From a virus: DNA of 25,161 bases. Numbering within the stretch: position 1 is the stretch's first letter; every line of letters begins with the position of its first letter. Below are positions 2,466 to 25,161 of this stretch, one piece after another. The translations under genes and the position numbers were made by a program. The notes under the pieces are model-generated. The model ran no database searches and had not been told where the DNA came from. It was given only the letters and a program-made list of their open reading frames with translations. Location of the stretch: positions 1-25,161 of the IMG/VR virus record IMGVR_UViG_3300035438_000119, one strand, 5' to 3'.

Positions 2466-5400
2466 ATGCCTGGTAAATTAAAAGTCGGTGGGTCTTGGAG
2501 AGATATCACCTATATTAAACTAAAAGTTGGTTCTATATGGACTAATGTTGGAGAGGCGTATTTAAAGGTAGGCGGTGACTGGAGTAAGTTCTTTGGTGCA
2601 AGTGGACCACAGATAAGTCAAAAACCTGTAATCACGGCAAGCAGCACTACATTCCCAGCAATAGTAACTGGACGAAACTATCATTGGGATTCAGGAAATG
2701 TGTTTACTTATGTATTTCAATATTCATTGACTGCTCCAACATCAACTACAGCGTGGATAGACATAGGAGAGTACCAGTCAATTACAAACCCAGCAGTTGG
2801 ATCTTCAGTAACAAAGACATATGATTTAGCAGATTTAGAAGTTGATGTAGAAGATGATATTTGGGTAAGATTTACGGTGCTAGCCGTTAATACTGTAAAC
2901 TCAACACAGACAATTGAGAGTAGTGATCCTGTGCAAGTATCAAACAATCTTCCAGTTGGAACACCAGTATCTGCGGTAATAGTAAGAGATTCTGAAGATG
3001 GATACGTATACAGCGTATCAAATCCTGGTATATGGACAAAGACTCCTATTCTTTCATATAGATACCAATGGCAACAGAATACCTCTGGAACAACATGGGC
3101 TGATATAACAGGGGCAACATCTATATCAAGAAACATGCTTTCATTCGTTGGTAAAAATGTTAGAGTAAGGGTTTGGGCAACAAACTCATCTGGAGAATCA
3201 TTTAGGCCAATTGTTTCAAATTCAATGATGGTAACTTATGCACCACCAGAGATTAGTTCATTTACAGTAACTCCAAGAGCAGGTGGCGCTACTATTAGTT
3301 ATTCTGCAAGCACAGACGATCCTGACTATAGTATTTCTGTTTTATTAGAAAGACTGAGTGGTGGAACATATTCAGACTATTTCTTTATCCCAATACCTCT
3401 TACATCCCTTACTGCAACAGACATTGAATTTACTACTGATGTTTTGGCATCTGGTACATATCGTTTTACTCTTGTTGTAATAACTAATGATTTGATAGAA
3501 ACTACCTCACAGGTTTCTGGAGTTGTCGTACCAGCACTTTCTGCTTCTTCTTTAACGGTTACAGACACAACACCAACAACAGACTATACTCCATCAGGAC
3601 TTACAGTAACAAACCCATCAAACAATCTTGGTTTAGTTGAATGGACAAATGGAGCAAATGCAGATCTTGCCACATTGGTTTTAAGCGGTGCAGCAACTGG
3701 AACAACAATTTTTGATCCAATAGAATCAAGTAAAACCTTTAGCGTAACAGTAAGTGGAACAGTAACAGCTTCTTTAACCAATACTATAAAAGGTGAAGCA
3801 ACTATAGCATGGAGTCAAAGTGGTGCTAGAAGTTTTAAATTAAAATATGAGGTTGGTGGAAATCCTGTAACATACAATGTTGCAGATACTACATCTACAT
3901 CTCCAAGTCTAAATATAATGTCTAATGGTCTTCAGGTTAAAGCAGTTTCTGTTGAGGTATTCCCTTTGACAAATTATCAAGGTACATCAACACTGTTTAC
4001 TCCATCAGTAGCACCAACTGCAACACCAACAAACAAGGTTAGCACTCCAGCCATTACTGCAAGTGGAACAGTAGAATTCCTTAATCCAAGTGCATCCTCT
4101 TTGGCAATTGCAAACACAACACCAAACGCAACACCTACTGTAACTAGTGTTAGAAACAGTGCAACAACAAATGTTGGAACTGTAGATTGGGAAAATGGAA
4201 CTGGAGCAACTAGTGGCTGGCTAGAAAAGATGACAGCAGCTGGAATTGTAACTGGACAACCAATTGCCGATCCTGGAAGTCTGTCTACTACTGGATCATT
4301 TAATATTTTAATTACTGGAAATGCAACGGCAGTAGTAAAAAATAGATCAAATGCACAAGTCACCATATCTTGGTATCAATCTTCTGTAAAAAGCTATAGG
4401 CTAAGATATACCGTTGCTGGAACTTCTTATACTAGAAATGCAAATACTGTAGATGAAAATGGAGCTGCAATAACTGGAACAACTTCTTTTATTATTCCAA
4501 TTGATGTAAACAATAAAGCAGTTGTTGTTACAGAGCTAGTTGTATATTCTGGATTAAACCAAAATGGAATTCCATCTGCTGCTGTACTACCAGGTTCAGC
4601 ATCTGTTACAGCAACAAACATAACAAATGAAGCAACAGGATCTGGTGCAGTGACTTATGCAGCACCAGCAACAGCTCCAGGAACTCCAACAAACCTACAA
4701 AGAAACCTTGATGGAGCATCAAAAACATTTACTTGGACCGCACCATCTGACGGTGGTTCGCCAATAACAAATTATGAGTTCAATATAAATAACACTGGAT
4801 GGTTTGCTAGAAGTCCAGCATCTTCAGCTACATCTTATTCACTTACAGCAGTAACTGGAAATATTGGAAACACTTTTCAAGTTCGTGCAGTAAATGCAGT
4901 AGGTTCTTCTGCTACCCCAGCTAGTTCTGGAACTTATTATGTTCCATCTGTTGGAGCTCTTACTACATCATCTATTACTAAGACTTCAGCAATAATTACT
5001 TGGACTTCAGGTACAGCTGCACAAGCTGCATGGTCACTATCACTTCCAGGAGCATCAGGTTCACCATTTACTGCAAATAATAGTAATACGTCCTTTGGTG
5101 TTACTGGATTAGTAGCAGGAACATCTTATACACCAACATTAACTCTTACATCTTCAAGTGGTGATACAAACTCTAGAACTGGAACTGAATTTACTACAGT
5201 AGGTCTTTCAGGAATTAAAACGTTGTCAAACCTTACAGTATCTTCTGGAACACTAAGTCCATCATTTCTTTCTGGTACTAATTCATATACTGTTTCTGGA
5301 CTATCTAATGCAACATCATCTATTACTGTTACTCCTACAGTTACAGACTCTACATCTACCGTCACAGTAAATGGAGTTTCAGTAGCTTCTGGGTCAGCAT

Positions 5401-7889
5401 CAGGTGCAATTTCACTCACTGCTGGATCAACAACTAATATTAACATTATAGTTACTGCAGAAAATGGAACCACTAATACTTATACAATTGCAGCTAGCAG
5501 AAATCTTCCAGCACTTAGCATTTCTCTTTCCAATGTTACTAAAACGCTTACTGGATTTACATTTACTTTAACAAGTACGTATGATTCCAACTATACATGG
5601 ACAGCATCTGTTCAATCACCTGCCACCATCTCCCCTTCTTCAGGATCTTCTAGTGGGCAAACCTACACGGTATCTGGAATGACATCTGATGGTGGACCAA
5701 AAATGGCCACAATAACTGCCTCACGTCCTGGATATGATACAGGATCTGATACAAGGACTGGATCTGTTCTAGCACCATCTGTATCTAATTTTACTATTTC
5801 AAATACAACGGCAAACCCAGTTCCTAGTTCAATTACCGTTGGAAATAGTGCAACAGTAAATGTTGGTACAGTAAATTGGGCAAATGGAACTGGTACAGAT
5901 AGATCTTGGGTATCATCTGTGACACCTGGATCATCCTTTACTGGCTCAGAAGGTACACTGAGCCCTACATCACAAAATTTCACCATTACATCTACTCAGT
6001 CAGCAGCAGTTGCAACAGTATTTAATAAAGCATTTGGTACAGCAACAATTTCTTGGAATCAGTCTGATGCACAAAGCTATACATTAATATATACCATTAG
6101 TGGAGTACCTGGACAACAAACAGTTAATGCAAATAGTACAGCATCCAGTGTATCCCGTTCTGTTAATGTAGATGGTTTAGCTGTTACCCTTGTATCAATT
6201 AAGGTTTTTACTGGACCAAATCAAACTGGAAACTTTAATAGTATAACATCAAGTTCATCAGTAACACCAGTTGATAAGATTAACTCAGCAACTGGTTCTG
6301 GATCTATAACACGTGTATCACCTCCAGGTACTCCAACAATAACAATATCAAGTAAAACAACATCTGGATTTAACGTGAGTTGGTCAGCATCTGGTGCAAC
6401 AACATATAATGTTAATGTATATAACGTAAGCACTGGAGTTTCAGTTTCTGGATATCCTTTAACAAATACAACCAATACATCTGCAACCATATCAGGATTG
6501 ACTGCAGACACTAACTATAAGGTTGAGGTTTTTGGAAATAATGCAGCTGGGTCTGGATATAATTTTGCAGATGTGACAACACTTTCAGTAACTCCAACTA
6601 TTAGTGGAATATCTATTAGTAATAATGCTATTTCTCCAGGTTCTTCTACTAGCATATCTGTTTCTAATACCCCACCATCAAATACTGGATCTGTATCATG
6701 GGCAAACGGATCTAATACATCAGCAGCAGGCTTGTTTACAGTATCTGGAGCAGGTTCTGGTGGTTCATCTCCAACAAACCCATCATCACTGTTAACCGCT
6801 GGAACGTTTACGGTAACATCAACTGGAACTGCATCGGTTGGTATACGTGCAATTAATACAAATAAGGGTGCAAATGTTTCATGGACACAATCTGCAGCAC
6901 AAAGCTATTCAATTAATATAACTGCATCAGGGCTTTCCACCTTCAATGTCACTGGAAACTCAAGTGCAAGCAGTCCAAGCATTCCTGTTATATCTAATGA
7001 TTCATTATCTAGAACAGTTACAGTAAATAGTGTTACAGTTTATTCTGGACTAAATCAGACTGGTACACCAGCATCACTTTCTTCTGGATTAAGCATAACA
7101 ACTGCAAATGGTATTACAGATACCCCAGGTTCTGGCTCTGTAACTTATAGTCTTCCATCTCCTGGAACACCAAACTTCCTTACTGCATCCACAGGAAGAA
7201 CAGATGGAGTTGAGCTTTCATTTAGTGGTTCTTCTAATGCAACTAGTTATGATATTTATTGGAATACTACTTCAGCAGTAAAGCCAGCAACAACTGTTAC
7301 TCCAGATTTTCCAGGAGTAACTTCACCATACCTAGATTCTGGAATACCACCTGGAGGAAGTAGACAATATTGGGTTAGAGGAAAAAATTCAACTGGATTT
7401 TCTGCATGGTTCCCAACAGGAACAGGTTCTAGTGGAAGAGTTGGAACAAGAGCTTCAGCTCCTCCTTTCTTCCCTCCTTTCTTCCCTCCTTTCTTCCCAT
7501 TCTTCCCACCGTTCTTCCCATTCTTCCCACCGTTCTTCCCACCGTTCTTCCCACCGTTCTTCCCACCGTTCTTCCCACCGTTCTTTGGTGCTTCAACACC
7601 ACCATTAACACCAACAGGTCTAACAGCACAACTATCTGGATCAAGTACTGTGCTTAACTGGAATGCAGCATCTGGTGCAACAAGCTATGAGCTATGGTAT
7701 CAACCAAGTTCTGCTCAATATTCTGGAACAACTTTTGACTATCCAGCTCCTGGACAACCAGCTATAACAAATACTACATTCTCTGCACCAGTTGGTTACT
7801 CACAGTACTGGACAGTTAGAGCAAGAAATTCAGCAGGTGTAAGTTCATGGTCTACAATGGTACAGTCATCATCAGGTGGTCCAGTATAG
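2466..7889 (+). CDS. Giant multidomain tail protein (Ig/FN3/cadherin-like, PPFF tract)
   Basis: 1807 residues. Approximate order: residues 4-45, three 14-residue repeats of the type LKVGGxW, common at the start of phage minor tail proteins; ~48-262, two Ig-like domains; ~263-355, FN3-like; ~357-518 and ~534-734, two copies of an unnamed module; ~738-913, two FN3 domains; ~914-1012, a cadherin-like beta-sandwich domain (starts LSNLTVSSGTLSPSF); ~1015-1100, a beta domain; ~1103-1287, module copy 3; FN3; ~1377-1566, module copy 4; FN3; 1666-1707, a Pro-Pro-Phe-Phe tract; ~1708-1807, final FN3. It likely forms an elongated, host-facing tail appendage that binds surface glycans or protein. The start is the first ATG after the preceding stop and has no good Shine-Dalgarno, so expression may depend on coupling to the upstream gene. 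Neighbours and domain content support tail origin; the receptor is unknown. Confidence 0.85.
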   Translation: MPGKLKVGGSWRDITYIKLKVGSIWTNVGEAYLKVGGDWSKFFGASGPQISQKPVITASSTTFPAIVTGRNYHWDSGNVFTYVFQYSLTAPTSTTAWIDIGEYQSITNPAVGSSVTKTYDLADLEVDVEDDIWVRFTVLAVNTVNSTQTIESSDPVQVSNNLPVGTPVSAVIVRDSEDGYVYSVSNPGIWTKTPILSYRYQWQQNTSGTTWADITGATSISRNMLSFVGKNVRVRVWATNSSGESFRPIVSNSMMVTYAPPEISSFTVTPRAGGATISYSASTDDPDYSISVLLERLSGGTYSDYFFIPIPLTSLTATDIEFTTDVLASGTYRFTLVVITNDLIETTSQVSGVVVPALSASSLTVTDTTPTTDYTPSGLTVTNPSNNLGLVEWTNGANADLATLVLSGAATGTTIFDPIESSKTFSVTVSGTVTASLTNTIKGEATIAWSQSGARSFKLKYEVGGNPVTYNVADTTSTSPSLNIMSNGLQVKAVSVEVFPLTNYQGTSTLFTPSVAPTATPTNKVSTPAITASGTVEFLNPSASSLAIANTTPNATPTVTSVRNSATTNVGTVDWENGTGATSGWLEKMTAAGIVTGQPIADPGSLSTTGSFNILITGNATAVVKNRSNAQVTISWYQSSVKSYRLRYTVAGTSYTRNANTVDENGAAITGTTSFIIPIDVNNKAVVVTELVVYSGLNQNGIPSAAVLPGSASVTATNITNEATGSGAVTYAAPATAPGTPTNLQRNLDGASKTFTWTAPSDGGSPITNYEFNINNTGWFARSPASSATSYSLTAVTGNIGNTFQVRAVNAVGSSATPASSGTYYVPSVGALTTSSITKTSAIITWTSGTAAQAAWSLSLPGASGSPFTANNSNTSFGVTGLVAGTSYTPTLTLTSSSGDTNSRTGTEFTTVGLSGIKTLSNLTVSSGTLSPSFLSGTNSYTVSGLSNATSSITVTPTVTDSTSTVTVNGVSVASGSASGAISLTAGSTTNINIIVTAENGTTNTYTIAASRNLPALSISLSNVTKTLTGFTFTLTSTYDSNYTWTASVQSPATISPSSGSSSGQTYTVSGMTSDGGPKMATITASRPGYDTGSDTRTGSVLAPSVSNFTISNTTANPVPSSITVGNSATVNVGTVNWANGTGTDRSWVSSVTPGSSFTGSEGTLSPTSQNFTITSTQSAAVATVFNKAFGTATISWNQSDAQSYTLIYTISGVPGQQTVNANSTASSVSRSVNVDGLAVTLVSIKVFTGPNQTGNFNSITSSSSVTPVDKINSATGSGSITRVSPPGTPTITISSKTTSGFNVSWSASGATTYNVNVYNVSTGVSVSGYPLTNTTNTSATISGLTADTNYKVEVFGNNAAGSGYNFADVTTLSVTPTISGISISNNAISPGSSTSISVSNTPPSNTGSVSWANGSNTSAAGLFTVSGAGSGGSSPTNPSSLLTAGTFTVTSTGTASVGIRAINTNKGANVSWTQSAAQSYSINITASGLSTFNVTGNSSASSPSIPVISNDSLSRTVTVNSVTVYSGLNQTGTPASLSSGLSITTANGITDTPGSGSVTYSLPSPGTPNFLTASTGRTDGVELSFSGSSNATSYDIYWNTTSAVKPATTVTPDFPGVTSPYLDSGIPPGGSRQYWVRGKNSTGFSAWFPTGTGSSGRVGTRASAPPFFPPFFPPFFPFFPPFFPFFPPFFPPFFPPFFPPFFPPFFGASTPPLTPTGLTAQLSGSSTVLNWNAASGATSYELWYQPSSAQYSGTTFDYPAPGQPAITNTTFSAPVGYSQYWTVRARNSAGVSSWSTMVQSSSGGPV
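7461..7586 (+). repeat. 12-bp/9-bp coding tandem repeat (Pro-Pro-Phe-Phe units)
   Basis: Eleven tandem units lie in frame within the giant tail gene: three CCTCCTTTCTTC units, then alternating 9-bp CCATTCTTC and 12-bp CCACCGTTCTTC units, ending in five of the latter type (the final one has TTT for the last codon). Translated, they give nine PPFF and two PFF units, residues 1666-1707, joining two FN3 domains. Codon choice differs between the 5' and 3' blocks (CCT-CCT-TTC versus CCA-CCG-TTC), suggesting two separate expansions. Confidence 0.95.
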
Positions 7890-20117: not shown

Positions 20118-20643
20118 AGAAGAACTAATAAAGCATCTTGACGTAATGAACGATGTTGTTAGTGAATATCTAAAAGGCAGCGATCCAACCACTATTTCAA
20201 AAGAATTAGCTATTCCACGCACTCGTGTAGTGGCATACATTGATGAATGGAAAGAAAAGACTTCCAATAATACAGCAATCCGTGCTCGTGCAAAAGATGC
20301 ACTTGCTGGAGCTGATGCACACTATAGCAAGCTTATACTTAAGTCTTATGAAGTAATTGATGAAGCCTCTATGACTAATAATCTTAGTGCAAAGACTGCT
20401 GCTATTAAGCTTGTGATGGATATTGAGTCTAAGAGAATTGACATGTTGCAAAAAGCTGGACTTCTTGAAAATAAAGAACTTGCAGAAGAGATGGTTGAGA
20501 TTGAGCGTCGTCAAGAAATTTTAGTTGGTATTCTTAGAGACATAGCATCATCTCACCCAGAGGTTAGAGACATTATTATGCAAAGACTTTCTGTTATTGC
20601 AAAAGAGGGAGAAGTGATTACTGTTGTCCACGACGTTCAATGA
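20107..20643 (+). CDS. Probable terminase small subunit
   Basis: 178 residues. Immediately upstream of the large terminase and overlapping it by 20 bp, the usual place for the small subunit, which recognises packaging-site DNA and forms a ring. The N-terminal third holds a helix-turn-helix (SEYLKGSDPTTISKELAIPR then TRVVAYIDEW). The rest is long helices (AAIKLVMDIESKRIDMLQK and EEMVEIERRQEILVGILRDI) suitable for oligomerisation. GAGGG lies upstream of ATG at 20107. The assignment rests on position plus architecture rather than a diagnostic motif. Confidence 0.75.
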   Translation: MSTEEELIKHLDVMNDVVSEYLKGSDPTTISKELAIPRTRVVAYIDEWKEKTSNNTAIRARAKDALAGADAHYSKLILKSYEVIDEASMTNNLSAKTAAIKLVMDIESKRIDMLQKAGLLENKELAEEMVEIERRQEILVGILRDIASSHPEVRDIIMQRLSVIAKEGEVITVVHDVQ

Positions 20644-22405
20644 TTTTTTTGAGGTACTAAAAGAAAACCATTTTGTTGAGACTCCAGTTGACGCAAAGAC
20701 TTTTGTTGAGTCTCCAGACTATCTTGGTCAACCACCACTATCTGAAATTCAATACACCATTGTAGAGGCAATGAGCCAAATTTATCGTAAAGAAGATGTT
20801 GTTGACATGCTTGGCGACAAAGGTGAAGAATACTATAAAAAATATACAAAGAATGAGCTAATCCTGCAACTTGGCAAGGGATCTGGAAAAGACTTTGTAT
20901 CAACAGTGGCCTGTGCATATGTAGTATATAAAATGCTTTGTCTTAAAGACCCTGCTATTTATTATGGAAAGCCTGCTGGAGATGCTATTGATATTATTAA
21001 CGTTGCTGTTAACGCTCAACAGGCTAAGAATGTTTTCTTTAAAGGTTTTAAATCTAAGATTGAGAGATCACCATGGTTTGCTGGCAAGTACAACCCAAAG
21101 GCTGACTCTATTGAGTTTGATAAATCAATTACAGTTTATTCTGGTCACTCAGAACGAGAGTCCCATGAGGGTTTGAACTTGTTTATGGCTGTACTTGATG
21201 AAATTTCTGGATTTGCATCTGAGGTTGCAACTGGAAATGAGCAAGGCAAGACTGCTGACAATATCTATAAAGCTTTTCGTGGTACCGTAGATTCTCGCTT
21301 TCCTGATCTTGGTAAGGTAGTTCTACTTTCATTCCCACGATATCAGGGTGACTTTATTTCTCAACGGTATGATTCAGTAATTGCTGAGAAAGAAATAATA
21401 GATAGATCACACAGGTTCATTATTAATGAAGATTTGCCAGAGGACAGCCCAGAAAATAGTTTTGAGATAGCTTGGGAAGAAGACCATATTCTTTCGTATA
21501 AGATTCCAAAGATATTTGCACTTAAAAGGCCAACATGGGAGGTTAATCCAACTCGTAAGATTGATGACTTTAAGATTGCATTCCTAACAGATTTAGGAGA
21601 TGCAATGATGCGTTTTCTTTGCACACCAACATACTCATCAGATGCTTTCTTTAAGCAAAAAGAAAAGCTTGTTAACTGTATGACACTTACAAACCCTGTT
21701 GATAGTTTTAGAAGGTTTGCAGAAAACTTTAAGCCAGACCCAGACAAGCAATATTATGTCCATGCTGACCTTGCACAAAAGCACGATAAGTGTGCTGTTG
21801 CTATTGCACATGTGGATAAGTGGGTAAATATCCAGGTAATTAAAGATTATGAACAAGTAGCACCTATCGTAATAGTAGATGCTGTAGCTTGGTGGGAACC
21901 AAAAGCAGAAGGACCAGTCAACCTATCTGAGGTAAAGCAATGGATTATTAATCTAAGAAGACAAGGTTTTAATATTGGAATTGTTTCATTTGACCGTTGG
22001 CAGTCATATGATATTCAGCAAGAGCTTAAGCAGGTAGGAATAAGAACTGACACTGTTTCTGTTGCAAAAAAACACTACGAAGATTTAGCAATGATGGTCT
22101 ATGAAGAGCGTATTGCTATGCCCATGATTCCCTTGCTTCTGGAGGAAATGTCAGAGCTCAAGATCATGAAGGGTAATCGTGTAGATCACCCTAGAAAGAA
22201 GTCTAAGGACTTAGCAGATGCTGTTTGTGGGGCAGTATTTGGTGCCATATCTCATACCCCAAAGGAAATGAATATTGAAATAGATATTCATACCTGGGGA
22301 TCTGCTGATAAAGTTGCAAGACAGCAGAGGGCTATGGTAGAATTGGAAGACAGGCAAATGCCTAATGATGTCAAGAGCTTTCTTGACAATTTAAAACTAA
22401 TATAA
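20624..22405 (+). CDS. Terminase large subunit (packaging ATPase-nuclease)
   Basis: 593 residues. Motor of DNA packaging: an ATPase followed by an RNase H-like nuclease that cuts concatemers. Walker A LGKGSGKD at 83-90, Walker B LFMAVLDEISGF with D192 and E193, coupling motif VVLLSFPRYQGD near 232-243. The nuclease has three acidic positions: D382 (YYVHADLAQKHD), D457 (GIVSFDRWQS) and D529 (KKSKDLADAVCGA). The length fits the family. The start is TTG at 20624, because an in-frame stop at 20615 and the absence of ATG or GTG leave no other choice before residue ~50; AGGGAG sits 12 bp upstream, a little far. No portal gene follows within the window. Confidence 0.93.
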   Translation: MSTTFNDFFEVLKENHFVETPVDAKTFVESPDYLGQPPLSEIQYTIVEAMSQIYRKEDVVDMLGDKGEEYYKKYTKNELILQLGKGSGKDFVSTVACAYVVYKMLCLKDPAIYYGKPAGDAIDIINVAVNAQQAKNVFFKGFKSKIERSPWFAGKYNPKADSIEFDKSITVYSGHSERESHEGLNLFMAVLDEISGFASEVATGNEQGKTADNIYKAFRGTVDSRFPDLGKVVLLSFPRYQGDFISQRYDSVIAEKEIIDRSHRFIINEDLPEDSPENSFEIAWEEDHILSYKIPKIFALKRPTWEVNPTRKIDDFKIAFLTDLGDAMMRFLCTPTYSSDAFFKQKEKLVNCMTLTNPVDSFRRFAENFKPDPDKQYYVHADLAQKHDKCAVAIAHVDKWVNIQVIKDYEQVAPIVIVDAVAWWEPKAEGPVNLSEVKQWIINLRRQGFNIGIVSFDRWQSYDIQQELKQVGIRTDTVSVAKKHYEDLAMMVYEERIAMPMIPLLLEEMSELKIMKGNRVDHPRKKSKDLADAVCGAVFGAISHTPKEMNIEIDIHTWGSADKVARQQRAMVELEDRQMPNDVKSFLDNLKLI

Positions 22406-22422
22406 CAAGGAGAAATACAAGT

Positions 22423-23949
22423 ATGAATTCATTCAAGAAAATCTCAATTGCTACTGCTGCAGCTTTAGCAATCGTTGGTCTTTCTGTAGCACCTTCTTCG
22501 GCAGCACCGCTGACCGTTTCAGTTGCATCAGTAACTAACGCTACAACAGCAGCACTTCCAGCAACCGTTGCAGTACCATCAAATAATCAAATTTTGGCTG
22601 GTACATCAGTTGCAATTGCAGCAACAGCAGATACAGGAACAAGTGTTTCTTTTGCTGCTTCATCAACAGTTAAGTTGGTAACAGCACTGCACACAGTAGA
22701 TGCACCAAAGACAGTTGCATCAGGAGTTTCATCTCTATCACTTACATCTGCAGGAGCAGCAATCACTGTTTATGCATACACAACAACAACAGCAGTTGGA
22801 TCAGTAACCGTAACAAACGGATCATATTCAACAATTGTTTACATTGCAGGTACTCCAGGATCTGCATATAATCTAGGACTTTCAGTTCCATCTGCAACAG
22901 CAGTAGGAACAGTTCCAACAATTGCTCTTACAACAACAGATGTATTTGGTAACGCAGTATCAGATACAGCAACAGTAACCTTGATTGGTTCAACTTTTGC
23001 TAATGGATCAGTTTCAACAATATTGACAACTGCTGCAGCAACAAATGCTTCAACAGGTGCAGTTCTTGGAACAGTAACAGCAGCACTTGCAACAGCAGTT
23101 GCTGGAGATATTACAGTAGTTGCAACAGGTCTTGCAGCAGTAACACCAGTAACTGGTCTTGCTACTCCAACAAAGTCTGTAATTGCTAAGTTCACAGTAT
23201 CTGATCTTGCTGGTATTATTACAGCACTAAAGTCTGATCTTGCTTCAGAAAAGTCTGCCCATGATGCAACTAAGGCTGCTTCAACAGCAGCAGCAAAGGC
23301 TGCAGCAGATCTTTTGGCAACAGAAAAGGCTACACATGATGCTACAAAGGCAGCACTAACAGCAGAGTCAAAAGCTAAGTCAGAGCTTGCAGTAGCACTT
23401 TCCAAGGCAAATGCAGAGATTGCAACAGCACTTGCAGACTTGTCAGATGCTAAGAAGGCTAAGGCAGATGCGGATAAGGCTATTGCGGATGCTAAGACAT
23501 CTACAGATAAGATTATTGCAGATCTAAAGTTGCTTCTTGATAAGTCAAATGCAGATCTTGCATCAGCTAAGAAGGCTCTTGATGACCTAAAGGCTTCTTC
23601 AGATAAAGCACTTGCAGATGCAAACTCAGCCCATTCAAAGGCTATTGCTGATGCTAAGGCTTCTTCAGAAAAGTTGCTTGCTGACCTAAAGGCTTCTTCA
23701 GATAAAGCACTTGCTGATTTGAAGACATCTTCAGATAAGGCTCTTGCTGATGCTCAGGCATCACATGCAAAGGCTATTGCTGATGAGGTTACTGCACATG
23801 CAGTAACAAAGGCAGCACTTGCTAAGGCACAGTCAGATGCAGCAGCTAAGGCTGCAGCAGATGCTAGAGCAAAGGCAGCACTAAATGCAAAGATTAAGGC
23901 AGCAAACAAGAAGCTTCCTAAGTCATTGCAGATTCCTTTGGTTAAGTAA
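22423..23949 (+). CDS. Secreted surface-type protein with 11-residue-repeat coiled coil
   Basis: 508 residues. Classical Sec signal peptide: MNSFKK, hydrophobic ISIATAAALAIVGLSV, and cleavage at about residue 27-28 (SSA-AP). Residues ~30-265 are a threonine/alanine/valine-rich beta region resembling bacterial S-layer or adhesin Ig-like domains (for example TTDVFGNAVSDTATVTLIGS). Residues ~266-470 form a coiled coil built largely of 11-residue units such as LKASSDKALAD, AKTSTDKIIAD and AQASHAKAIAD. The end is basic: AKIKAANKKLPKSLQIPLVK. It should be exported and sit on or outside the host cell, or be carried by virions after export. AAGGAG precedes ATG, and a strong terminator follows. No LPXTG or membrane anchor is seen. 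Codon use (GCA/GCT/ACA) is skewed by composition. A host origin is plausible. Confidence 0.85.
   Translation: MNSFKKISIATAAALAIVGLSVAPSSAAPLTVSVASVTNATTAALPATVAVPSNNQILAGTSVAIAATADTGTSVSFAASSTVKLVTALHTVDAPKTVASGVSSLSLTSAGAAITVYAYTTTTAVGSVTVTNGSYSTIVYIAGTPGSAYNLGLSVPSATAVGTVPTIALTTTDVFGNAVSDTATVTLIGSTFANGSVSTILTTAAATNASTGAVLGTVTAALATAVAGDITVVATGLAAVTPVTGLATPTKSVIAKFTVSDLAGIITALKSDLASEKSAHDATKAASTAAAKAAADLLATEKATHDATKAALTAESKAKSELAVALSKANAEIATALADLSDAKKAKADADKAIADAKTSTDKIIADLKLLLDKSNADLASAKKALDDLKASSDKALADANSAHSKAIADAKASSEKLLADLKASSDKALADLKTSSDKALADAQASHAKAIADEVTAHAVTKAALAKAQSDAAAKAAADARAKAALNAKIKAANKKLPKSLQIPLVK
23584..23714 (+). repeat. 32-bp direct repeat within hendecad coiled-coil region
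   Basis: Two identical 32-bp copies (23584-23615 and 23683-23714) start 99 bp apart, exactly 33 codons or three 11-residue units. They encode the same LKASSDKALA stretch, indicating recent in-frame duplication or recombination among repeat units of the secreted protein gene. Confidence 0.9.
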
Positions 23950-23963
23950 AACTTAATTAAGTT

Positions 23964-23999
23964 AGAGGGGTTAGCCAAGTGCTAGCCCCTCTTTCTTTT
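23964..23999 (+). terminator. Rho-independent terminator after the secreted protein gene
   Basis: A 12-bp stem (23964-23975 paired with 23981-23992, one G-T wobble), a five-base loop CAAGT, then TTCTTTT. The stem core is AGAGGGG with CCCCTCT. It begins 15 bp after the stop codon and ends 10 bp before the next promoter candidate, insulating the two secreted-protein genes. Confidence 0.92.
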
Positions 24000-24008
24000 G
24001 CAATAAAA

Positions 24009-24017
24009 TGATATAAT
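24009..24017 (+). promoter_or_regulatory. Extended -10 promoter for the PA14 gene (TGATATAAT)
   Basis: Perfect TGnTATAAT directly after the terminator. Predicted transcript start near 24024, leaving a ~38-nt leader with AAGGAG at 24050-24055. No -35 match at the expected distance, as is usual for extended -10 promoters. The same nine bases occur at 7911. Confidence 0.6.
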
Positions 24018-24049
24018 AGCCTTATTAGTCATATCACCACTACGACTAT

Positions 24050-24064
24050 AAGGAGAGAATTATT
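24050..24064 (+). promoter_or_regulatory. Ribosome binding site fixing an ATT start codon
   Basis: AAGGAG at 24050-24055, then six bases, then ATT at 24062-24064 followed by AAGAAA, the usual basic opening of a signal peptide. In this frame there is no ATG, GTG or TTG between the upstream stop (TAG 24026-24028) and a TTG at 24152, which lies after the signal-peptide cleavage site. Another ATT at 24059 is only three bases from the Shine-Dalgarno. Confidence 0.7.
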
Positions 24065-25161
24065 AAGAAATTAATAAGAACAGGTATTGTTCTATCTTTA
24101 ATTTTAGTACCACTATTTTTATCCACAGATAAAGCTCATGCAGCAGAAGGTTTGACTGCTCAAGTCTATAATGTGCAGGGTCAAAATGCTTCCCCATATA
24201 TCCCACAGGGTTCCTCTCCAGTACTAACTACAAACGTACCCAACATTGACCACCAATGGGGTTCTGGTAGCGTCTTAGGTGGCCCAGCAGAGGACGTTAT
24301 TGTACGTTTTACGGGCTCAATCAGAAGTGACTCTACTCAAAATATATCCTTTATGGCTACAGGAGATGACGGTACCAGGCTCTACATTGATGGAGCATTA
24401 ATAACAGATGATTGGGTTGACAAGGGTGGTGGAGGATCAACCTCTGCTCCAGTATCTTTTACAGCAGGAGTTCCAAAAACCATAGAATTAATGTACTATG
24501 AAAATGGTGGGGGAGCAAATGTATTCCTATATTGGGATCAATCTGGATCTATGGGAATTGTCCCAGCATCAGCCTTTACTTCACAAGCAGCCCCAGTAGT
24601 AAGAACAATAGGTGCTCCAAGAAATCTTACAGTAACAGATGGGGAAACTTCAACATTATTAATTTGGGAAGCCCCTAATACTGGTAATACTCAACCAGAA
24701 AGATATGCAATAGGTCTTAACACTGAAGGGCAAAATGGTTGGGGTATTGCAACTGGAAATGTTGGAGATGCTAACGCATTAAACACAACAATAACAATTA
24801 ATCATTCTTTACTTGAAAGCCTAATGCCAAGCGGAACTGTATGGTCATTTCATATTAGATCAGACAATGACACGTTAGGAGTTTACTCTGAAAATTCAAA
24901 TGTTGTTACACTTAAAATTGGAAAAACTGCAGAGGAAATTGCAGCAGAACAGGCAGCAGCACAGGCTGCTATTGATGCAGAGAATGCAAGATTAGCAGCC
25001 ATCGCTGCAGAAGAAGCAAGACTAGCAGAGATTGCACGATTAGAAGAAGTTGCTAGGCTGGCTGAAATAGCAAGACTTGCAGAGGTTGCTAGACTAGCAG
25101 AAGTCGCTAGACTTGAAGCAGAAGCAGCAGCATTACTGGCAGCTCAACAAGAAGCAGCACG
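24062..25161 (+). CDS. Secreted PA14-FN3-coiled-coil protein, ATT start, 3' partial
   Basis: Open from 24029 to the right edge; 366 full codons from ATT at 24062. Signal peptide: KKLIR, hydrophobic GIVLSLILVPLFL, cleavage after AHA (residue ~27). Residues ~31-173 form a PA14 domain (LTAQVYNVQG; FMATGDDGTRLYIDGALITD; KTIELMYYENGGGANVFLYW), a beta-barrel fold that usually binds sugars. Residues ~184-284 are an FN3 domain (GAPRNLTVTDG; YSENSNVVTL). From ~286 on it is an alanine-rich helix with six-residue units such as ARLAEI and ARLAEV. It has its own promoter and terminator-insulated position. Likely an exported glycan-binding surface protein or an adhesin-like virion part that needs export. 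A non-standard ATT start is inferred; an ATG changed by one base (mutation or sequencing error) is the alternative. Confidence 0.82.
   Translation, partial: MKKLIRTGIVLSLILVPLFLSTDKAHAAEGLTAQVYNVQGQNASPYIPQGSSPVLTTNVPNIDHQWGSGSVLGGPAEDVIVRFTGSIRSDSTQNISFMATGDDGTRLYIDGALITDDWVDKGGGGSTSAPVSFTAGVPKTIELMYYENGGGANVFLYWDQSGSMGIVPASAFTSQAAPVVRTIGAPRNLTVTDGETSTLLIWEAPNTGNTQPERYAIGLNTEGQNGWGIATGNVGDANALNTTITINHSLLESLMPSGTVWSFHIRSDNDTLGVYSENSNVVTLKIGKTAEEIAAEQAAAQAAIDAENARLAAIAAEEARLAEIARLEEVARLAEIARLAEVARLAEVARLEAEAAALLAAQQEAA

Follow-up and report, generated by a model that had tools for sequence, protein, structure and literature searches.

Some prophages encode superinfection-exclusion or receptor-masking proteins that are exported or membrane-bound and alter the surface of the infected cell; most of these are small proteins or lipoproteins of temperate phages. 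A phage-borne S-layer gene with an exclusion idea attached is already known in outline from the OM43 phage Melnitz: its gene 23 is described as a putative S-layer protein, for which protection against superinfection is postulated (PMC9004378). Here we analyse two adjacent genes, ORF1 and ORF2, at the end of a 25-kb virus fragment (IMG/VR record IMGVR_UViG_3300035438_000119, positions 1 to 25,161; the whole stretch is called the window). ORF1 encodes a relative of the surface proteins of acI actinobacteria (Nanopelagicales), and belongs to the core genes of a clade of freshwater actinophages, in which it is linked to the terminase. ORF2 is phage-specific and starts at a conserved AUU codon.

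A slot behind the terminase

The gene order of the window (DnaB, primase, DnaE-type polymerase, MazG, RecA, nuclease, RuvC-like protein, terminase) and the 53% identity of its terminase to those of Streptomyces BE-cluster phages (Stanwilliamsviridae), such as Karimac, place it near these phages. The terminase and the gene behind it are laid out as follows.

20624..22405, plus strand: terminase large subunit (phrog_2, E 3.5e-18), which anchors the conserved slot
22407..22412, plus strand: ORF1 Shine-Dalgarno sequence AAGGAG, read from the sequence, in the 17-nt gap behind the terminase
22423..23949, plus strand: ORF1, predicted exported S-layer-like protein of 508 aa with an ATG start, type A of five slot types
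22423..22506, plus strand: ORF1 signal peptide MNSFKKISIATAAALAIVGLSVAPSSAA, of the MNSFKK type, kept in the terminase relatives (77/77)

Using the terminase as query we found 80 loci, 77 of which had enough downstream sequence to judge. Every one of the 77 carried a signal-peptide frame of the MNSFKK type directly behind the terminase, which makes the ORF1-type gene a core feature of the clade and bears out the synteny that the first-pass annotation had proposed to check. The same annotation had asked whether the contig might be a chimera joining phage to host DNA near 22405. The junction between terminase and ORF1 is 100% identical in three other contigs (L002, L003 and L004), and with the 77 relatives this rules a chimera out. 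Homologues of ORF1 do lie in host chromosomes, as described below, but it is barely conceivable that the pair is host-derived cargo without a selected function or the product of a chimeric contig, given the repeated junction, the presence of the gene in all testable relatives and how strongly ORF2 is conserved together with its promoter and start codon.

Phages carrying such a terminase-adjacent relative of a coat protein form a large and widespread freshwater family. Across 158 loci the terminase and the first gene behind it are co-directional with a median spacing of 17 nt, and the start codon is ATG in 153 and GTG in five. We found no clear promoter of its own for ORF1, which lies 17 nt behind the terminase. 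The 158 complete genes in this slot fall into type A (113, including the window's own), type B (29), type C (9), type E (4) and type F (2); the remaining one is an unrelated frame in contig L114. The five types have a common signal peptide and a common position, as expected of a variable surface protein. No other part of ORF1 is as well conserved in all five as the signal peptide, and C-termini have been exchanged between types A and B.

In a second clade (contigs L016, L024 and L062; the L024 terminase is 59% identical over the fragment available) both genes lie elsewhere, ORF2 clustered with membrane proteins and ORF1 near a secreted subtilisin-like protease rather than the terminase. Among five long contigs of 56-113 kb, which may be incomplete, none carries a phage integrase, and three carry WhiB, a mark of actinophages.

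The first-pass annotation had described ORF1 as a signal peptide followed by an S-layer-like beta region and a coiled coil, and this architecture stands. To call signal peptides we relied on inspection by eye, a hydropathy scan and conservation; that of ORF1 is predicted to be cleaved between MNSFKKISIATAAALAIVGLSVAPSSA and the following A. The structure model (AlphaFold pLDDT 79) has Ig-like beta domains in tandem at aa 31-260 and a long C-terminal helix at aa 262-497. Foldseek returned Ig-like matches (invasin, complement and the S-layer proteins SbsC and SbsB) with TM-scores too low to give the family a name. ORF1 had no match in PADLOC, NCBIfam or Pfam, and no homologue was found in named phages.

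Codon usage sets ORF1 apart from the replication genes and terminase. G or C is the final base at only 3.5% of its fourfold-degenerate sites, whereas those genes have 12-15% (Fisher P 1.6e-7). The ORF1 of a 105-kb relative stands at 7.8%, the same value as that phage's probable major head protein. The corresponding host surface genes stand at 9-10%, against about 36% in their neighbours and 13-19% in host EF-Tu. The A/T-ending bias of individual acI surface-protein genes (L300 4364-6436, L296 3399-5096) is stronger than that of EF-Tu. ORF1 thus has the codon usage typical of very high expression, and both it and the host gene look like genes for proteins made in great abundance; part of the bias may come from amino-acid composition and repeats.

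Coat-type counterparts in acI genomes

The host set comprised 296 genomes from the order of acI strain IMCC26077, an acI-C1 strain (PMC5301498). At least three of the five phage types match host genes, and two of them, B and C, do so over their full length. The type-B profile matched 69 of the genomes, with E-values down to 5e-117, and the type-C profile matched four. With type A there were matches in 13 genomes, two of them strong (4.8e-66 and 1.7e-55) and the rest confined to the signal peptide or helix. The best, in L263, is 35% identical to type A over 162 aa (profile E 4.8e-66), and each of the 113 type-A proteins matches a chromosomal homologue in a host. The first type-A host gene is flanked by ordinary metabolic genes (L298), a clear chromosomal context. 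Types E and F gave partial matches only (292 aa at 28% identity, or no more than the C-terminal helix). Types B and C over their full length, and type A as the L263 match, are thus homologous to host proteins beyond the signal peptide and coiled coil.

A second type-A homologue lies in L264 (host genome G200), where the adjoining gene resembles the neighbour of the L263 homologue. This indicates that type A, though rare, is also a host chromosomal gene.

Host types B and C share one chromosomal slot, in the order ECF-type sigma-70 factor, surface protein, O-antigen ligase-like Wzy_C protein, UDP-glucose dehydrogenase and epimerase, and are alternative alleles of it. The acI slot between sigma factor and Wzy also holds a 907-aa form, in L301. 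It is likely that this is a hypervariable S-layer locus of acI bacteria.

The ends of the proteins tell a similar story. Over the last 40 residues, phage and host proteins agree at up to 32 positions, with stretches such as ITxLTNLVIKIQKKVKA near-identical. Two phage ORF1s carry the C-terminal motif CVKGKxxKKVTxVxPxCPxGYKKK (TITCVKGKLTKKVTAVAPVCPTGYKKK in L209). Among 84,980 species genomes only actinobacterial records, mostly from fresh water, matched this motif, and they include strain IMCC26077 and Nanopelagicaceae.

In a tree with a midpoint root and modest sampling, phage type B and phage type C each form one clade, beside different host alleles. This suggests separate captures into one phage slot. 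Identity between the phage copies and their closest counterparts among the sampled host copies is 32-43%.

The first-pass annotation had held that both products look like host surface proteins. For ORF1 the host homology supports this, but ORF2 as a whole does not fit: its N-terminal head matched five of the 296 genomes, mostly through PA14 and nothing else, and none matched its C-terminal domain, in a search run without a positive control.

ORF2 and its AUU start

The signals between the two genes and the part of ORF2 inside the window are these.

23964..23992, plus strand: intrinsic terminator after ORF1 (12-bp stem with 7 G-C pairs, z = -4.6)
24009..24017, plus strand: extended -10 promoter of ORF2, TGATATAAT; TGNTATAAT lies upstream of ORF2 in 56/62 relatives
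24026..24048, plus strand: leader hairpin TAGTC(13)GACTA, directly before the ORF2 Shine-Dalgarno sequence
24050..24055, plus strand: ORF2 Shine-Dalgarno sequence AAGGAG, read from the sequence
24062..24064, plus strand: AUU initiation codon of ORF2, from the start column over 60 distinct loci
24062..25161, plus strand: 5' part of ORF2, which runs off the window
about 24227-24556, plus strand: PA14 domain (Pfam 7.3e-9)
about 24614-24916, plus strand: FN3 domain, a weak match
from about 24926, plus strand: start of the helical stalk, about 450 residues long in the full protein

The pair had been proposed as a moron-like cassette insulated by a terminator and an extended -10 promoter. Both signals exist, but they lie between ORF1 and ORF2. 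The terminator is therefore inside the pair, only ORF2 has a promoter of its own, and the ORF1-type gene is not sporadic among relatives, so the moron-like description does not hold. Promoter-like sites in the region as a whole are weakly above shuffles (19 against 13.6 +/- 3.6).

The case for the leader hairpin is that different stems recur at one place: its position holds 19 distinct stem sequences with a mean of 5.7 bp, against 3.8 in shuffles, over loci that are not independent. Single-sequence folding gives a weak signal (mean z about -1). Pair counts on a MAFFT alignment of the leader were set aside, as the alignment misplaced the 3' arm.

Over 60 distinct loci the start column of ORF2 reads ATT in 42, TTG in nine, CTG in five, ATG in two, and GTG and ATC in one each. 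It is always a start or near-start codon behind a Shine-Dalgarno sequence. In the window's ORF2 no ATG, GTG or TTG occurs from the upstream stop as far as the hydrophobic core. ATA is frequent at conserved isoleucine sites elsewhere in ORF2 and is absent from the start column at all 60 loci. The AUU of infC is a non-AUG start under IF3 control. In Streptomyces sigR a GTC start is repressed through IF3 (PMC5472188). By analogy, the AUU of ORF2 may be under IF3-type control. Conserved over dozens of independently assembled loci, it marks a rare natural phage gene kept on a non-AUG start.

The full protein has 935 aa (L082; L004/L082), so the PA14-FN3-coiled coil described in the first-pass annotation was the front of a longer product cut by the window. 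In order, ORF2 has a signal peptide (predicted cleavage between IKKLIRTGIVLSLILVPLFLSTDKAHA and A), PA14, FN3, the stalk, a conserved C-terminal domain, a hydrophobic segment and a basic tail. The C-terminal domain, the membrane segment and an overlapping partner gene for a protein with two predicted transmembrane segments (2-TM) lie beyond the window. The structure model of ORF2 is of low confidence (pLDDT 63). Its PA14 domain was recovered both by profile (6qe7, E 5e-27) and by fold (E 6e-10), and the nearest solved relatives are PA14 domains of RsgI3 and of the Marinomonas primoryensis adhesin (6qe7, 6m8m, 6x8a). D102, D103 and G104 are invariant in 19 sequences; we take D102-D103 to be the paired Asp of the PA14 calcium- and sugar-binding site. 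The C-terminal hydrophobic segment is present in 18 of 18 sequences with a mean hydropathy of 1.77-2.07, and the overlapping gene encodes 56-60 aa with two hydrophobic stretches.

In named phages ORF2 was found only in lake phage DSL-LC01 (the FN3 part), with one further match in a gut contig. A DSL-LC01 protein combines an ORF2-like FN3 (49%) with an end segment that matches the 2-TM partner (E 1.5e-4, 0/60 block shuffles), so ORF2 and the partner probably work jointly at the membrane. Homology of the ORF2 C-terminal domain to DSL-LC01 was not significant (hhalign probability 2%); the 2-TM end alone is supported. An ORF2 variant at L024 3732-5696 has a head that does not begin as the usual PA14 does (SP-SEISATVSEGEVLTLSAPSGFKIDRVLFASYGTP...) with the later part and C-terminus unchanged, a head exchange.

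These features bear on whether the two proteins might be virion decorations or fibres, with hydrophobic N-termini that do not serve export and with Ig-like, PA14 and FN3 domains for host recognition on the particle. Such domains are common in phage tail proteins, and some distant fold matches in a viral library are virion proteins. However, a canonical signal peptide is the best-kept part of ORF1 in five types, relatives of ORF1 occupy surface-polysaccharide loci of the host, ORF2 has a membrane segment at its end (hydropathy of 1.77 or more, 18/18) and a 2-TM partner, and in the 105-kb relative the structural genes form a separate block from ORF1 and ORF2. No relatives were found that use these proteins in the virion without signal peptides. 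A virion role is highly improbable.

Downstream of ORF2, as seen in L004 and relatives, come the 2-TM protein, membrane proteins with a weak holin match, an HslV-like protein and a secreted subtilase; relatives also have an endolysin with CHAP and peptidoglycan-binding domains. The subtilisin-like protease of L004, the window's own phage (15688-16551), keeps its D, H, N and S positions, and had no match by sequence among solved structures. Subtilisin-like proteases lie near ORF1 or ORF2 in two phage clades, also at L190 17863-18741, L016 8150-9262 and L062 8249-9262. The HslV/proteasome-like Ntn hydrolase (phrog_1040; L014 11568-12134) sits beyond ORF2 and ahead of the lysis genes in most of the relatives inspected. 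A further subtilase candidate, L161 16918-17958, was rejected; by eye it is a PstS-like phosphate-binding protein. PstS-like proteins with a signal peptide occur in the accessory region of L161 (same coordinates) and L310 (13459-14505), near genes that by eye look small heat-shock-like, Dps-like and thioredoxin-like. Elsewhere in the window, a 1807-aa FN3/cadherin-like tail-type protein (ORF 2466-7889) has low-complexity Phe-Pro blocks (FFPPFFPPFFPF...) at 7429-7644, encoded by repetitive DNA.

Possible roles at the cell surface and known systems

The first-pass annotation was right that two adjacent genes behind the terminase have predicted Sec signal peptides. Predicted export of both products, together with the host homology of ORF1, makes surface remodelling the leading idea. 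It is probable, with some confidence, that the coat of the host is what the phage acts on, a step common to re-dressing the cell and to dismantling its envelope. We put at slightly under one in two (roughly 0.48) the probability that the infected cell is re-dressed with a mimic of the host S-layer, made of ORF1 and ORF2, with superinfection exclusion as the most likely gain.

This re-dressing builds on computed features: export signals, host homology, conservation, the AUU start, codon bias, a sugar-binding fold and a membrane segment. ORF1, as a phage-borne copy of a coat-type protein of acI/Nanopelagicales, would be made in quantity off the terminase-linked transcript and exported by Sec. 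Because its C-terminal coiled-coil ends are of host kinds, it could join or cover the host surface layer. ORF2, from its own promoter and with its translation rate presumably lowered by the AUU start, would be a membrane-anchored stalk whose PA14 head binds glycans of the host coat. With coat receptors masked or replaced, competing phages would fail to adsorb during a long lytic infection. It is possible, more tentatively, that the fixed slot samples the allele variety of the host S-layer for a matching or a different coat, with an AUU-throttled sugar-binding stalk as partner, and that virulent-looking phages exchange coats in this way.

Several points weigh against re-dressing. What makes the host protein S-layer-like is its sequence, its locus and its codon bias; acI is the presumed host of the phages; and homology need not mean that phage and host subunits would co-assemble. 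High expression would exceed what simple receptor masking needs. The CHAP endolysin, holin-like proteins and secreted subtilase downstream suit lysis equally well.

Dismantling of the envelope for lysis is the strongest rival. ORF1 would be a dominant-negative spoiler of the lattice and ORF2 a link between membrane and coat; the subtilase would cut the coat, and the cell would open after holin and endolysin had acted. Spanins link inner to outer membrane in diderm hosts, and acI cells are taken to be monoderm; by analogy this would be an S-layer counterpart of spanins. The membrane proteins, subtilase and HslV-like protein downstream of ORF2, and the endolysin in relatives, fit this, as do the second clade, which places ORF1 near the subtilase rather than the terminase, and the apparent fusion of ORF2 with its overlapping 2-TM partner in DSL-LC01. 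A weak AUU start would also suit a timed lysis protein. However, a codon-optimised, full-length ORF1 in several alleles is more than a poison subunit needs, and the window's clade couples ORF1 to the terminase, not to lysis genes. No known spanin-like motif was found, and the subtilase of L004 matched no solved structure by sequence. On balance we consider dismantling unlikely.

A new coat with a sticky sugar-binding stalk might instead change how the infected cell adheres, sinks or resists grazing. S-layer-like proteins govern surface contacts, and the solved PA14 relatives of ORF2 include adhesins as well as RsgI sensors. The benefit to the phage would be indirect, however, and neither an export nor a sorting signal of adhesin type was found, so we regard this as improbable.

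Among the bacteria of fresh water the acI actinobacteria rank with the most abundant, and it has been proposed that their microdiversity stems from heavy predation by phages (PMC10202952). Throughout the phage clade described here, a homologue of what is probably the host's main coat protein is kept at a fixed position and in several types, at least three of which have counterparts among host proteins. If phage and host contend over the coat, exchange or dismantling of the S-layer is directly testable. In the literature we found no phage locus reported to hold host-coat homologues of several types, and no mention of the ORF2 family or this phage module.

Melnitz gene 23, compared here by its description, is likewise a phage gene annotated as an S-layer protein and linked to exclusion; it is a single gene of a marine methylophage, and the part of the account available reports neither an allelic series nor a match to a host locus (PMC9004378). 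Like the prophage exclusion and receptor-masking proteins, those of the window would change the infected cell surface, but ORF1 is large and homologous to a coat protein of the host, and its phages have no recognised integrase. The PA14 domain of ORF2 shares its fold and the invariant Asp-Asp (D102-D103) with those of RsgI3 and the adhesin, whereas the phage version sits on top of a long helical stalk that has a membrane segment near its C-terminus. Like the bacterial genes infC and sigR, ORF2 has a non-AUG start that selection has retained, but it is a phage surface gene. The acI/Nanopelagicales surface proteins themselves (L296, L297 and L299-L301) likewise have a signal peptide, beta-rich body, coiled-coil C-terminus and A/T-ending codon bias, and phage types B and C are homologous to them over their full length. 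The phage copies differ in that they lie behind the terminase, have their own MNSFKK signal peptide and form their own clades.

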